From Planctomycetia bacterium (GTDB lineage Bacteria > Planctomycetota > Planctomycetia > Gemmatales > Gemmataceae): a stretch of 33,431 nucleotides of DNA. The notes below the pieces were generated by a model, which did no database searches, was not told where the DNA came from, and was given only the letters and a program-made list of their open reading frames with translations. The first letter of the stretch is position 1. Each line of letters opens with the position of its first letter. The stretch spans positions 1-33,431 of the forward strand of contig SXID01000256.1 in assembly GCA_005772955.1 (NCBI GenBank), given 5' to 3'. Positions 1-33,431 of this stretch are shown here, piece after piece. A program made the position numbers and the translations under genes.

Positions 1-143
1 AGACCGGCTTGCACCTTCGCGCCGAGCGCTTCGATGAACGCGGTCGCGGCTTTCCCCGTACCTAAACCCACCACCATGTTCGGGCCGATCAGTTCGACCG
101 CTTTCGCGGCAATGGCGTCGGTGTTGGGGGTGTTCGCGGGCAT
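1..143 (-). CDS. rpiA: Ribose-5-phosphate isomerase A, N-terminal part (runs off the left edge)
   Basis: The reverse strand from the ATG at 143 reads MPANTPNTDAIAAKAVELIG, followed by a stretch with VVGLGTGKAATAFIEALG, and stays open to the window edge. This is the start of RpiA, which interconverts ribose 5-phosphate and ribulose 5-phosphate in the pentose phosphate pathway. The GLGTG-x-A-A-T phosphate-binding loop near residues 27-35 and the following F-I-x-x-L-G are typical of the family; most RpiA proteins have GLGTGST, so the K-A-A variant is a small deviation. A GAGGA ribosome-binding site lies 6 nt before the ATG. Only about 47 residues are visible, so the catalytic part cannot be checked. 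Confidence 0.85.
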   Translation of the reverse strand, partial: MPANTPNTDAIAAKAVELIGPNMVVGLGTGKAATAFIEALGAKVQAG

Positions 144-312: not shown

Positions 313-836
313 AATCTGCTTCGCGTCGCGGCAGTGAGTCAGCACGTCGGTGTTGTCGCAGCCCGCGTCTTGGAGTGCGTCCGCGAGGATCGGCATCGCG
401 GTGTCAGCGCGCCATCCAGGGGAGAAGGTGACCGGGCGAAAGGGGTTGCCGAAGATGTCGCGGAACAATGTTGCAATTGGGACGTTGTAATTATCTACGC
501 TGCTGTCAAGAAAGTCGCCAATCACAGAGTACGGGTCTGGACAGAGTTGCTCGTCATTAACGGTCGAAGCGAGGTTTGCAATCGGGTCGGTGTGCATCGA
601 GGAGTAGCCAATATCCCAGATCAGGTTTAGCGCTTGTTCGCGCGCGTCGCGCGACCATCGACGAAGTCCTCAAGGACGCATAGTAAAGCAGGTGTTTTGA
701 GGTCGCTTGTATGTAGCGGGATGTGCTGGCAAACTGCTACAACCAAAAGTTGAGTTTTCCGCGAATTGAGTGGGAGCGGGATGGTGGAAAGGACCTCGCG
801 CCAAATGTCAGAAGCGGGCCATTGCTCTTCTGTCAT
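268..836 (-). pseudogene. Gemmata paralog-family protein, frameshifted copy
   Basis: The start at 836 (MTEEQWPASD) is preceded by GGAGG at 8 nt spacing. The frame runs through VVAVCQHI and VLEDFVDGRATR, then meets a stop at 627-629. Shifting frame at the (CG)4 run at 639-646 restores the reading EQALNLIWDIGYSSMHTDP and continues to the family signature FRDIFGNPFRPVTFSPGWR, MPILADALQDAGCDN and RGCWVVDLVLG, ending at 268. One CG unit fewer would make a single ORF of about 190 residues, the size of the intact paralog at 31345-31926. Compared with that paralog it also lacks 15 codons (VRALAAQMYESRDFG) in frame. The function of the family is unknown. Either a decayed gene or a sequence error at the CG run is possible; the extra deletion favours decay. 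Confidence 0.7.
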
Positions 837-19617: not shown

Positions 19618-19630
19618 CAGGCCACATCGC

Positions 19631-19702
19631 TTAGCCGCGACGTGCAGCGGAGCGAGCCACCAACACGTGTCGGTGTCTCGCTCCGCTGCGCGTCGCGGCT
19701 AA
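19631..19702. repeat. 72-bp palindrome of the TTAGCCGCGAC type behind dnaK
   Basis: Left arm 19631-19656 and right arm 19677-19702 are complementary over 26 bp with one T/C difference that would still pair as G-U in RNA. The 20-bp centre is itself nearly palindromic around ACACGTGT, so almost the whole 72 bp folds back. It begins 13 nt behind the dnaK stop. The outer TTAGCCGCGAC matches the elements at 27280-27363 and 12516-12547, while the inner arm (GTGCAGCGGAGCGAG) differs. Downstream AAACGTTTTC gives a weak T-run only. Confidence 0.85.
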
Positions 19703-19783
19703 ACGTTTTCTTCGTCGTTCTCAAACGCCCGCGGCGCGGGTATCTTAGAGCAGGTGAGGACTCGTTTCCCGCGAGGGTTCGTC

Positions 19784-20809: not shown

Positions 20810-20820
20810 GCAATAGAACT

Positions 20821-20870
20821 CGCGCAGCCGCGACGCAGCGGAGCACTCTGCTGCGCGTCGCGGCTACGCG
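20821..20870. repeat. AGCCGCGAC-type palindrome between convergent genes
   Basis: Outer arms 20821-20836 and 20855-20870 are complementary over 16 bp with one mismatch; the inner part (AGCGGAGCA against TGCTGC) pairs less regularly. It starts 11 nt behind the stop of the plus-strand membrane protein and ends 6 nt behind the stop of the minus-strand DUF1501 gene, so it is well placed to end transcription from both sides. The AGCCGCGACGC core of the arm matches the element behind dnaK. Confidence 0.8.
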
Positions 20871-20876
20871 AGGTGT

Positions 20877-22320: not shown

Positions 22321-22394
22321 ACGGTGGACCGTACAGCCGCCCAGCGTTTTGCGCGAAGACTCGCCGCACTCTGGGCGGCTGAACGGTCCACCGT
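22321..22394. repeat. Inverted repeat with 24-bp arms between DUF1549 and DUF1501 genes
   Basis: Left arm 22321-22344 and right arm 22371-22394 are complementary with a single mismatch. The 26-bp loop (22345-22370) is not strongly self-complementary. It begins 11 nt behind the DUF1549/DUF1553 stop on the minus strand and ends 16 nt before the DUF1501 start. The ACGGTGGACCGT outer arm is itself nearly palindromic. It does not carry the TTTAGCCGCGAC terminus, but CAGCCGCCCAG is similar in kind. Confidence 0.88.
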
Positions 22395-27249: not shown

Positions 27250-27279
27250 GAGGTGTCTCGAAAGGTGTCTGTCGAAGAG

Positions 27280-27363
27280 TTTAGCCGCGACCCGTAGTCC
27301 GCGGAGTGGATCGCGCAACGTCGGTTGCGCGCTCCACTCCGCGGACTACGGGTCGCGGCTAAA
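27280..27363. repeat. 84-bp palindrome with perfect 31-bp arms, TTTAGCCGCGAC type
   Basis: Left arm 27280-27310 and right arm 27333-27363 are perfectly complementary over 31 bp. Inside them GCGCAAC (27313-27319) and GTTGCGC (27324-27330) form a further 7-bp stem with a 4-base loop, so the element folds into one very long hairpin with a single internal mismatch region. It begins 11 nt behind the DUF1501 stop on the minus strand and ends 30 nt before the PPC-protein start. No T-run follows in either direction. Confidence 0.95.
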
Positions 27364-27374
27364 CGTCTCTGGGT

Positions 27375-28686: not shown

Positions 28687-28772
28687 CCTCTCCCCCCAAC
28701 CCCCTCCCCTAAGAAGGGAGGGGGAGTAAATCCGGCTCCCCCTCCCTTCTTAGGGGGGGTTGGGAGGAGAGG
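28687..28772. repeat. 86-bp purine/pyrimidine-rich inverted repeat
   Basis: Left arm 28687-28726 (40 nt) and right arm 28736-28772 (37 nt) are complementary apart from one mismatch and a 3-nt insertion; the inner 19 bp beside the 9-bp loop are perfect. Each arm is made almost only of C/T or A/G blocks, so one strand has long C runs. It begins 8 nt behind the stop of the BIG2/DUF1549 gene on the minus strand and ends 16 nt before the DUF1501 start. CTAAGAAGGGAGGGG is shared in part with 14727-14833. Confidence 0.9.
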
Positions 28773-31926: not shown

Positions 31927-31952
31927 CGTGCCGCGGCGATTGATTGTGAAAG

Positions 31953-32031
31953 GTGATCCACCCAGCCTGCTGACGCAGGCGGTTCGACAGGGTTGGTCGA
32001 ACCACCTGCGTCAGCAGGCTGGGTGGATCAC
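31953..32031. repeat. 79-bp palindrome with 36-bp arms
   Basis: Left arm 31953-31988 and right arm 31996-32031 are complementary over 36 bp with one C/T difference that would still pair as G-U in RNA. The loop is 7 bases (AGGGTTG, 31989-31995). It stands 26 nt behind the stop of the paralog-family gene and 99 nt before the next plus-strand gene. The sequence is unrelated to the TTTAGCCGCGAC elements. No T-run follows (CACAACACCC). Confidence 0.95.
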
Positions 32032-32130
32032 AACACCCTACGCCGCACCGCTCGCGGAATTCGCTACCTTCGCGGTTCGCCGCCGAATATCTTCTTGCCA
32101 GCACATCGTTTCCCGCTCGGAGTTGCACCC

Positions 32131-33431
32131 ATGATCTCGCGCTACCGCATTGCCCTCGGCTTGTTCGCCTTGGCGCTCGGCGTCAGTCTTCTCGTGCCCC
32201 CGTCCGCGCCGGACGTGTTCGCACAACCGAAAGGCAAGCAGAAGGACAAGGAGAAGGATCCCCCGCCGCCGAACTTCACCATGCCGGATAGCTGGGCGAA
32301 GTCCTTTACTTGGCGCAACATTGGACCCGCGAACATGGGCGGGCGCATCACCGCGATCTCCGTGTTCGAGGCCGACCCTTCCACCTATTACGTCGCCACC
32401 GCCAGCGGCGGGTTGCTGAAGACCACCAACAACGGTGTCACCTTCACCCACCAGTTCGACAAGGAAGCCACCGTTTCGATTGGCGACGTGTGCGTGGCCC
32501 CGTCGAACCGCGACATCGTGTGGGTCGGCACCGGCGAGAACAACCCGCGAAACTCCGTCTCGTTCGGCGACGGCGTGTACAAGTCCATCGATGGCGGCAA
32601 AAGCTGGAACAACATGGGCCTCAACAAGACGTTCCAGATCGGCAAGATTCTCATTCACCCGACGAATCCGGATACCGTTTACGTCGGCGCGCTCGGTCGG
32701 CTGTACGGCGCAAACCAGGAACGCGGGCTGTTCAAGACGACCGACGGCGGCAAGACGTGGGAAAAGGTCTTCTATCTCGACGACAACACGGGCGTCATCG
32801 ACGCGCGCCTGGACCCCTCGAACCCAGACGTGCTTTATGTCGCGATGTGGGAACGCCGGCGCGACGGGTACGACTCGTGGCCCGGCGGCGGCATCCCTGA
32901 CGGTTACGACTCCTACGACCCTGTGATGAAGTGGGGTAAGGGGGCCGGCATCTACAAGACCCTGAACGGCGGCAAGACGTTCAAGAAGCTGACCAACGGG
33001 CTGCCGACGAGCAACATGGGCCGCATCGGGCTGGACATCTACAAGAAAGACCCGAACGTGCTGTTCGCGGTGGTCGATTGCGAGAAGATCGGCATGGGCG
33101 AGCCAAAGAAGGGCGCGGTTGCGGCCAGCACCACGTACATGGGCTTAACCGGCGAAGACGCGGAAGGCGCCGGCGCAAAGATCACGCGCGTGGTGCCTGG
33201 TGGCCCTGCCGAGACCGCGGGGCTGAAGGTCGATGACGTGGTGAACAAAATGGGCGACAAGGCGGTGAAGACCTACGAGGAGATGCTCGCGGTCGCCGGT
33301 GCCGCGAAGCCGAACGACAAGGTGAAGTTGCAAGTGCTACGCGGCGACAAGGCCACCACAGTCGAGCTGACTTACGGCGAGCGCCCGGCCGGGAAGGGCG
33401 GGTTCGGCGGACCTGGGGGAGCATCGGCCAC
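32131..33431 (+). CDS. Secreted BNR/VPS10-like beta-propeller protein with PDZ domain (runs off the right edge)
   Basis: The frame from the ATG at 32131 is open to the window end (433 codons). A signal peptide (MISRYRIALGLFALALGVSLLVPPSAPDVFAQ) is followed by WRNIGPANMGGRITAISVFEADPSTYYVATASGGLLKTTNNGVTF. Repeats of the type GVYKSIDGGKSW, GLFKTTDGGKTW and GIYKTLNGGKTF alternate with I-x-P-x-N-x-D-x-x-Y-V strands, as in sortilin/VPS10 and BNR propellers. At about residues 345-420 a PDZ domain follows (AKITRVVPGGPAETAGLKVDDVVNKMGDKAVKTYEEMLAV). GGAG lies about 8 nt before the start. Propellers of this type are common in exported planctomycete proteins and often bind glycans or peptides; the C-terminal part is outside the window. 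Confidence 0.85.
   Translation, partial: MISRYRIALGLFALALGVSLLVPPSAPDVFAQPKGKQKDKEKDPPPPNFTMPDSWAKSFTWRNIGPANMGGRITAISVFEADPSTYYVATASGGLLKTTNNGVTFTHQFDKEATVSIGDVCVAPSNRDIVWVGTGENNPRNSVSFGDGVYKSIDGGKSWNNMGLNKTFQIGKILIHPTNPDTVYVGALGRLYGANQERGLFKTTDGGKTWEKVFYLDDNTGVIDARLDPSNPDVLYVAMWERRRDGYDSWPGGGIPDGYDSYDPVMKWGKGAGIYKTLNGGKTFKKLTNGLPTSNMGRIGLDIYKKDPNVLFAVVDCEKIGMGEPKKGAVAASTTYMGLTGEDAEGAGAKITRVVPGGPAETAGLKVDDVVNKMGDKAVKTYEEMLAVAGAAKPNDKVKLQVLRGDKATTVELTYGERPAGKGGFGGPGGASA

Follow-up and report, generated by a model that had tools for sequence, protein, structure and literature searches.

A long palindrome in a Gemmataceae genome is very probably a REPIN-like doublet of a dispersed hairpin repeat associated with a Y1 transposase

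The window analysed here, a stretch of 33,431 nucleotides from a planctomycete of the family Gemmataceae, carries near its end a palindrome located in the spacer between two genes read in the same direction (Table 1). The upstream gene belongs to a family for which no Pfam or NCBIfam match was found; the C-terminal ~85 residues of the family are strongly conserved, and one relative has 159 matches to it. Recomputation bore out the anatomy given in the preliminary description, namely 36-bp arms, a 7-base loop and a single C/T difference (C at 31980 versus A at 32004), such that the arms are 97% complementary. The accompanying statement that no other arm pair of the window is longer was not borne out, as the pairs at 27279-27364 and 19628-19705 have longer arms. 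Since the one mismatch splits the arm, the palindrome does not rank first in a scan for perfect hairpin arms, in which the top arm of the window, 21 nt, lies at a different palindrome, while eight dinucleotide shuffles of the window gave top perfect arms of 9-13 nt. Folding of 31940-32045 as RNA yields -79.3 kcal/mol, whereas shuffles average -35.0 (z -12), and folding of 31953-32031 as DNA yields -46.9 as compared to -13.3 in shuffles (z -14). No Rfam family was found in the window at gathering scores, and a plasmid collection searched with 31940-32045 gave no match.

Table 1. Genes, repeat units, direct repeats and palindromes of the window, with positions counted from its first letter
Feature	Position	Strand	Details
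Second-family palindrome	19628..19705		39-nt arms (90%); score 46, shuffled maximum 26
Second-family palindrome	20819..20872		score 48, shuffled maximum 23
Longest arm pair	27279..27364		41 nt (98%); dispersed repeat, at least 36 matches listed in the genome
Upstream gene, 193 aa	31345..31926	+	29-match family in this genome; stop 26 nt before the palindrome
Left direct repeat, CGCGG	31932..31936		5 bp, bounds the 121 bp absent in G001
Left arm	31953..31988		36 nt
Left outer extension, GTGATCC	31953..31959		complementary to 32025-32031
REP unit 1	31960..31988	-	GTCGAACCGCCTGCGTCAGCAGGCTGGGT on the - strand; exact match to the family pattern; foot toward the centre
Spacer between the two feet	31989..31995		7 nt; units head-to-head
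Right arm	31996..32031		36 nt
REP unit 2	31996..32024	+	deviates from the family pattern at one base (A at 32004)
Right outer extension, GGATCAC	32025..32031		among 104 units, found only after the two units here
Right direct repeat, CGCGG	32053..32057		second copy
Downstream gene	32131..33431	+	Sortilin-Vps10/BNR repeat and PDZ domain matches; leaves the window

Each arm is composed of one 29-nt unit, GTCGAACCGCCNGCGTNAGCNGGCYGGGT, and 7 further nt. A genome search with 31930-32045 returned at least 83 matches (40 of 69 candidates scored), and the unit pattern, allowing up to three mismatches, occurs 56 + 48 = 104 times in the whole genome, as compared to 1 + 0 for a reversed-pattern control. 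A separate count over the fetched stretches (250 kb including the window), allowing up to four mismatches, also gave 104 units, an agreement that is coincidental. The consensus, GTCG-AACC-GCCNGC-GTNA-GCNGGC-YG-GGT, folds into a 6-pair inner stem with a 4-nt loop, followed by a bulge and a short outer stem. Covariation is seen in the inner stem: 65 of the 71 distinct units have a Watson-Crick combination at the variable pair 12-21 (mean 23.7 and maximum 36 in shuffles), with GC, TA, CG and AT all represented. The GTNA loop is present in 97 of the 104 units and its C-G closing pair in 99, and the foot reads GTCG in 94, GGCG in 5, GTTG in 3 and GCCG in 2; the outermost pair 5-30 is weak, with standard pairing in 52/104. 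The window's two units, each folded singly as DNA, give -7.2 and -8.7 kcal/mol, with the position of the bulge slightly off the drawn structure. Relative to predicted genes, 97/104 units show no overlap, 5 touch only the last bases of a gene and 2 lie inside; these predictions come from a simple gene finder of our own making that missed the transposase gene of contig C236, whose end is overlapped by one further unit outside this tally. In the broad sense of the term, a 20-40 nt imperfect palindrome of high copy number, mostly intergenic and with paired changes in its stem, the unit is a REP.

Units frequently occur in company. Within the fetched stretches, neighbouring units are arranged head-to-head in 14 cases, tail-to-tail in 24 and directly in 10, and tandem arrays show periods of about 36, 41, 61 and 65 bp. 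The 29-nt cores are perfectly complementary in 10 of the 38 opposed doublets and differ by at most one mismatch in 18, and the partners of a doublet are more alike than under random pairing in each type (0/2000 shuffles). Loop sequence also follows orientation, with GTAA or GTGA loops in 0/28 units of head-to-head pairs as compared to 30/48 of tail-to-tail pairs (Fisher p 1e-8). A tail-to-tail doublet with perfect cores (L038 2099-2170, C129:14598-14669) lies inside a predicted 2877-bp gene whose frame is open throughout. At the palindrome itself the two units, 31960-31988 (-) and 31996-32024 (+), are inverted REPs within one hairpin, the arrangement by which a REPIN is defined. The suggestion that the palindrome is a singular structure calling for special formation, selection or repair hence gives way to a plainer one, as the dispersed repeat forms 38 opposed doublets in all, of which the palindrome is one, so that it is ordinary in this genome. 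Nor was the proposed connection with the multicopy gene upstream borne out, since that gene family was matched at only 2/48 other fetched REP loci, one of them over just 23 residues.

This doublet also has 7 nt of outer symmetry. Outer extensions of at least 7 nt are found in 1/14 head-to-head and 2/24 tail-to-tail doublets (7, 8 and 11 nt), with 3/182 and 0/552, respectively, in mismatched controls; the three control extensions probably stem from a subgroup with common flanks, and the head-to-head count alone is not significant. It is the private sequence, not the extension count, that points to local strand switching between the arms. The idea of a recent formation therefore finds support in part, in that GGATCAC is private to this doublet, which is what local inverted copying or correction between the arms should yield.

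A search for an empty site using the upstream gene gave mostly paralogues, whereas the downstream gene led to the nearest relative found, G001, with 92% identity in the downstream protein. This relative lacks 31937-32057, i.e. 121 bp including the palindrome, and the missing piece is bounded by the CGCGG direct repeat. In a pairwise reading, the leader of the downstream gene in G001 joins 20 bases, 19 of which match the bases preceding the palindrome here; a three-way MAFFT alignment instead places those 20 bases against the right flank, with an identity that is poorer by eye. A further relative, G012, aligns weakly from 32041 (70% over 169 columns) and covers bases that G001 lacks up to 32052. 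Because of this alignment to right-flank bases missing from G001, a deletion in G001 is the more likely course of events, and it looks like a slippage deletion. The converse, that the 121 bp were inserted in the present lineage, would agree with the continuous leader of G001 and its few units (10), but we regard it as somewhat unlikely, because the absent segment extends into non-palindromic flanks and lies between 5-bp direct repeats in the manner of a slippage deletion, and G012 aligns, however weakly, where G001 has no sequence. The instability that the preliminary description ascribed to such a palindrome thus receives some support from a loss between CGCGG repeats. A missing repair system is not backed by gene content, as the genome encodes SbcD above the family cut-off and, beside it, an open frame with an SbcC-like ATPase (ATP-binding) N-terminus, named by eye. 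Passages of PMC3733652 suggest that mismatched dimers are protected from SbcCD; the 10/38 doublets with perfect 29-nt cores sit badly with such protection, unless cleavage is weak in this genome. The site, with a long palindrome in an SbcD-encoding genome and none in the sister, offers a natural comparison.

The position of the palindrome also raises the question of a role in RNA, i.e. that it is kept as a terminator or a 3' decay barrier for the upstream gene and has no present role for a transposase. Such a role would accord with its start 26 nt past the upstream stop codon, with the very strong RNA fold and with the general location of REPs at 3' ends according to passages of PMC3733652. 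However, no intrinsic terminator (stem and T run) was called at 31953-32031 on either strand, the downstream gene of G001 has a nearly identical near leader without the palindrome, the loop is GTNA almost throughout the family, and many units face starts of genes rather than ends. We therefore consider an RNA role unlikely as the reason for its presence, and return to the reading of the palindrome as a REP doublet.

Some units do contribute to neighbouring genes in another way, in that the REP loop also gives the stop codon. Among 39 units with a GTAA or GTGA loop, 16 have at least 100 open codons in the frame leading to V-E-P-P-A-stop, as compared to 5 and 11 in the other two frames; the excess is modest, and several of the 16 look non-coding. 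At L053, L035, L025, L052 and L022 the loop supplies the stop together with a (V/G)EPPA tail, the proteins concerned being an NhaA antiporter, a MetH (activation) domain protein, a possible esterase, an unnamed protein and the transposase described below. The transposase, the NhaA antiporter and the MetH activation domain are clear genes, while the possible esterase scores under its Pfam threshold and no family could be assigned to one protein. GTAG REPs can likewise provide a TAG stop to neighbouring genes (PMC3733652, in the passages concerned). Long frames ended by a tail-first TGA (GTCA loops) were considered and rejected, as only 4/55 units had at least 100 open codons and none more than 139.

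The genome contains 8 matches to PF01797, and one of these transposase genes stands among units of this family. The gene at C236:99-650 has units at 49-77 (+), 633-661 (+) and 677-705 (-), so that it is flanked by inverted REPs, as RAYT genes are by definition, and it ends within a unit, its last codons reading V-E-P-P-A and its TAA being part of the GTAA loop. A second copy at C183:8776, 96% identical over 94 residues, begins 11 bp past a three-unit array and is cut by the contig end, with its far flank off the contig; a third relative in the genome shows 36% identity. Further Y1 transposase genes, each flanked by its own different repeats, were observed at L045, L049 and L050 (contigs C148, C52 and C89). 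The C236 protein scores 22.7 against PF01797 (cut-off 23) and 23.2, just above it, in the genome search, and reaches 41.8 bits against NF047646 (REP-associated tyrosine transposase), below the curated cut-off of 80. The HUH and tyrosine core of the Y1 fold is present: H97, H99, Y159 and Q163 are invariant in an alignment of 14 sequences and invariant or nearly so in one of 53. The residues at the tyrosine read Y-T-R-D-Q and thereby lack the Y---NP motif of class 2. A model of an 80%-identical homologue (L143; pLDDT 90.6, alignment of 53 sequences) has as its top Foldseek match 4er8, the REP-bound transposase of E. coli (E 4.7e-5), followed by IS200/IS605 transposases, and by VIA-align it gives Z 10.6 over 129 residues with 4er8 and Z 11.8-13.7 with IS200/IS605-type enzymes. 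At the sequence level, phmmer against PDB sequences returned for the transposase only the weak IS200-type match 2fyx (E 0.22); two SAKe proteins with better scores are repetitive and were discarded as unlikely hits.

Beyond its own genome the unit pattern was found in 15/58 relative genomes, namely in 14 of the 18 congeneric genomes and in G034, which belongs to the same family, with a control pattern in 0/58. The units of G007, G009 and G012 are only three-mismatch variants with a GGCGAACG foot, and the single-contig genome G002 carries 40 units, including head-to-head doublets of a variant unit. A transposase homologue at E <= 0.001 occurs in 29/58 relative genomes, and the two are not distributed one-to-one. 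G018 has both, and its 80% homologue also ends in VEPPA within such a unit, with two units at the gene end; G003 combines 167 units with only distant homologues. Evidence against a pairing of unit and transposase comes from G002 (40 units), G005 (74 units) and G001 (10 units), in which no homologue was found at E <= 0.001.

The association of homologues with flanking hairpins extends further. A scan of named genomes retained 80 of 82 homologues, by title 75 from planctomycetes (one being Gemmata sp. IIL30), 3 from 'Chloroflexi bacterium' and 2 from 'bacterium'. Where enough flank was available, a 14-mer recurs in the two flanks of one and the same homologue in 65/75 cases, as compared to 154/5550 mismatched flank pairs; in an earlier set, 22/29 homologues had repeats common to both flanks, as compared to 2/62 and 3/149 control windows from other loci. 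Among the 65, stems of at least 5 pairs are found in 52, of which 45 have a 4-nt loop and 25 of these GTNA on either strand, counts that are not independent since the homologues are related. A scan that presupposes the motif, a CGA[AG] or TGA[AG] foot together with a GTNA loop, gave such hairpins close to 37/80 homologues versus 51/1600 shuffled sets; the commonest foot is GGCGA[AG] (28/37 loci), and GCCGAG, which fits CnGA, is found at 2/37. All 53 aligned homologues have the glutamine, spaced from the tyrosine as Y---Q in 46 of them and as Y----Q in 7.

These features of the transposase lead to a further alternative, that the units do not constitute a REP family but are the termini, or degenerate relics, of a MITE or of an IS200/IS605-like element. 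The class-1-like Y---Q motif and the best Z alignments of the model, which are with IS200/IS605 transposases, speak for it. Against it, 104 units are found for two close gene copies (and one at 36% identity), the intact copy stands among a single unit and a doublet and the other behind an array, so that no pair of one left and one right end is seen, and most units have no gene between them; we hold this alternative to be quite improbable. An assembly fold-back, which the preliminary description had named as an outcome that would undo its observation, is very unlikely, for although this is a draft of 278 contigs with many units close to contig ends, the flanks are not mirrored beyond the arms, the arms differ by one base, and the element recurs widely, with variant doublets in single-contig G002. 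At least 24/104 units are found no more than 250 bp from a contig end, on 14 contigs including C105, C109, C132, C136, C151, C152, C163 and C265, and therefore REP arrays probably break the assembly.

Other palindromes of the window allow a like explanation. The two second-family palindromes, with TAGCCGCGAC or CAGCCGCGAC, match repeats that flank a different Y1 transposase gene, on contig C143 (L047), at either end. The longest arm pair, 27279-27364, may tentatively be linked to the same gene by sequence similarity (score 28, shuffled maximum 23), and the palindromes at 22321-22394 and 28703-28759 gave no match to the transposase loci above shuffles. An origin of the kind proposed for 31953-32031 thus fits at least two further palindromes of the window.

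Taken jointly, these observations make us confident that the palindrome is a REPIN-like REP doublet belonging to a dispersed hairpin family with an HUH/Y1 transposase, by which it was probably mobilised in trans. This reading is favoured because the unit flanks one HUH/Y1 gene and adjoins its second copy, and because the model of a homologue matches 4er8. What had appeared as an oddity would hence be one copy of a transposase-linked repeat family. In the mechanism we propose, each unit would fold as a DNA hairpin when the lagging-strand template is single-stranded, the transposase would bind this hairpin via foot, bulge and loop, and it would cut and rejoin one strand, such that units or doublets spread in trans while the transposase gene itself stays put. 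As for the present doublet, whose 7-nt outer symmetry is private to it, local strand switching from arm to arm probably gave rise to it or corrected it. Located in the spacer, it presumably does little harm, and the RNA may form a long hairpin just past the upstream stop. It is an evenly balanced proposal that Planctomycetota have their own large REP superfamily, with the tag (N)CGA[AG] and a C-GTNA-G loop, each family being paired with one member of a Y1 transposase clade between IS200/IS605 and canonical RAYTs. If so, the fit of the GTNA loop to d(cGNNAg), which Nakano et al. reportedly described as a class of unusually stable DNA tetraloops, would mean that selection acts on the unit as single-stranded DNA in its folded state.

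Searches of open PMC papers found none on these repeats in Gemmataceae, and few on REPs in Planctomycetota. Among known systems, the anatomy is like that of REP/BIME/REPIN repeats with their RAYT (TnpA_REP) enzymes, e.g. the E. coli REPtron, which in passages of PMC2817692, PMC8266576 and PMC6006769 share the bulged hairpin, the unpaired 5' foot and a mostly intergenic location, as well as inverted doublets, arrays, units around a Y1 HUH gene and, here, a top Foldseek match to 4er8. Yet two canonical features are absent: the foot is GTCG (in relatives mostly GGCGA[AG]) and not the 5' GT[AG]G of GTAG REPs, next to a GTNA tetraloop, and the transposase has Y---Q, not the Y---NP of class 2. Against identity as a RAYT also stand the score below the NF047646 cut-off and the VIA-align values, which are nearer IS200/IS605 than 4er8. 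To IS200/IS605 elements (IS608, ISDra2) the likeness lies in the fold and the Y---Q motif, but here no left and right end pair surrounds a moving gene, and units far outnumber genes. CGTC-tagged REPs resemble the present ones in being tagged hairpins with opposed dimers and 4-5 nt loops; however, in passages of PMC3733652 they are reported without a transposase and with the tag CGTC, whereas the unit here has the tag GTCG and flanks a Y1 transposase gene. TIRtrons with their TIRYT, according to the same passages, share a Y1 transposase and non-GTAG flanking repeats, some self-complementary and dispersed, but their repeats are long terminal inverted repeats, some with GGGGWSAS, as compared to a 29-nt tagged hairpin here. 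TnpA_Y1 class 3 is, in passages of PMC6006769, principally found in Planctomycetes, Acidobacteria and Proteobacteria, with high-copy atypical hairpins adjoining the gene, and shares with the present enzyme the glutamine after the tyrosine, 7/53 homologues having the printed Y----Q; the differences are that the protein here and 46/53 homologues have Y---Q, and that the printed foot is CnGA as compared to TCGA here and mostly GCGA in homologues. If the class profile fits, the system would be a new member of class 3. With its non-GT[AG]G foot and near-invariant loop, such a REP system would make the rules by which foot, bulge and loop are read testable outside Proteobacteria.
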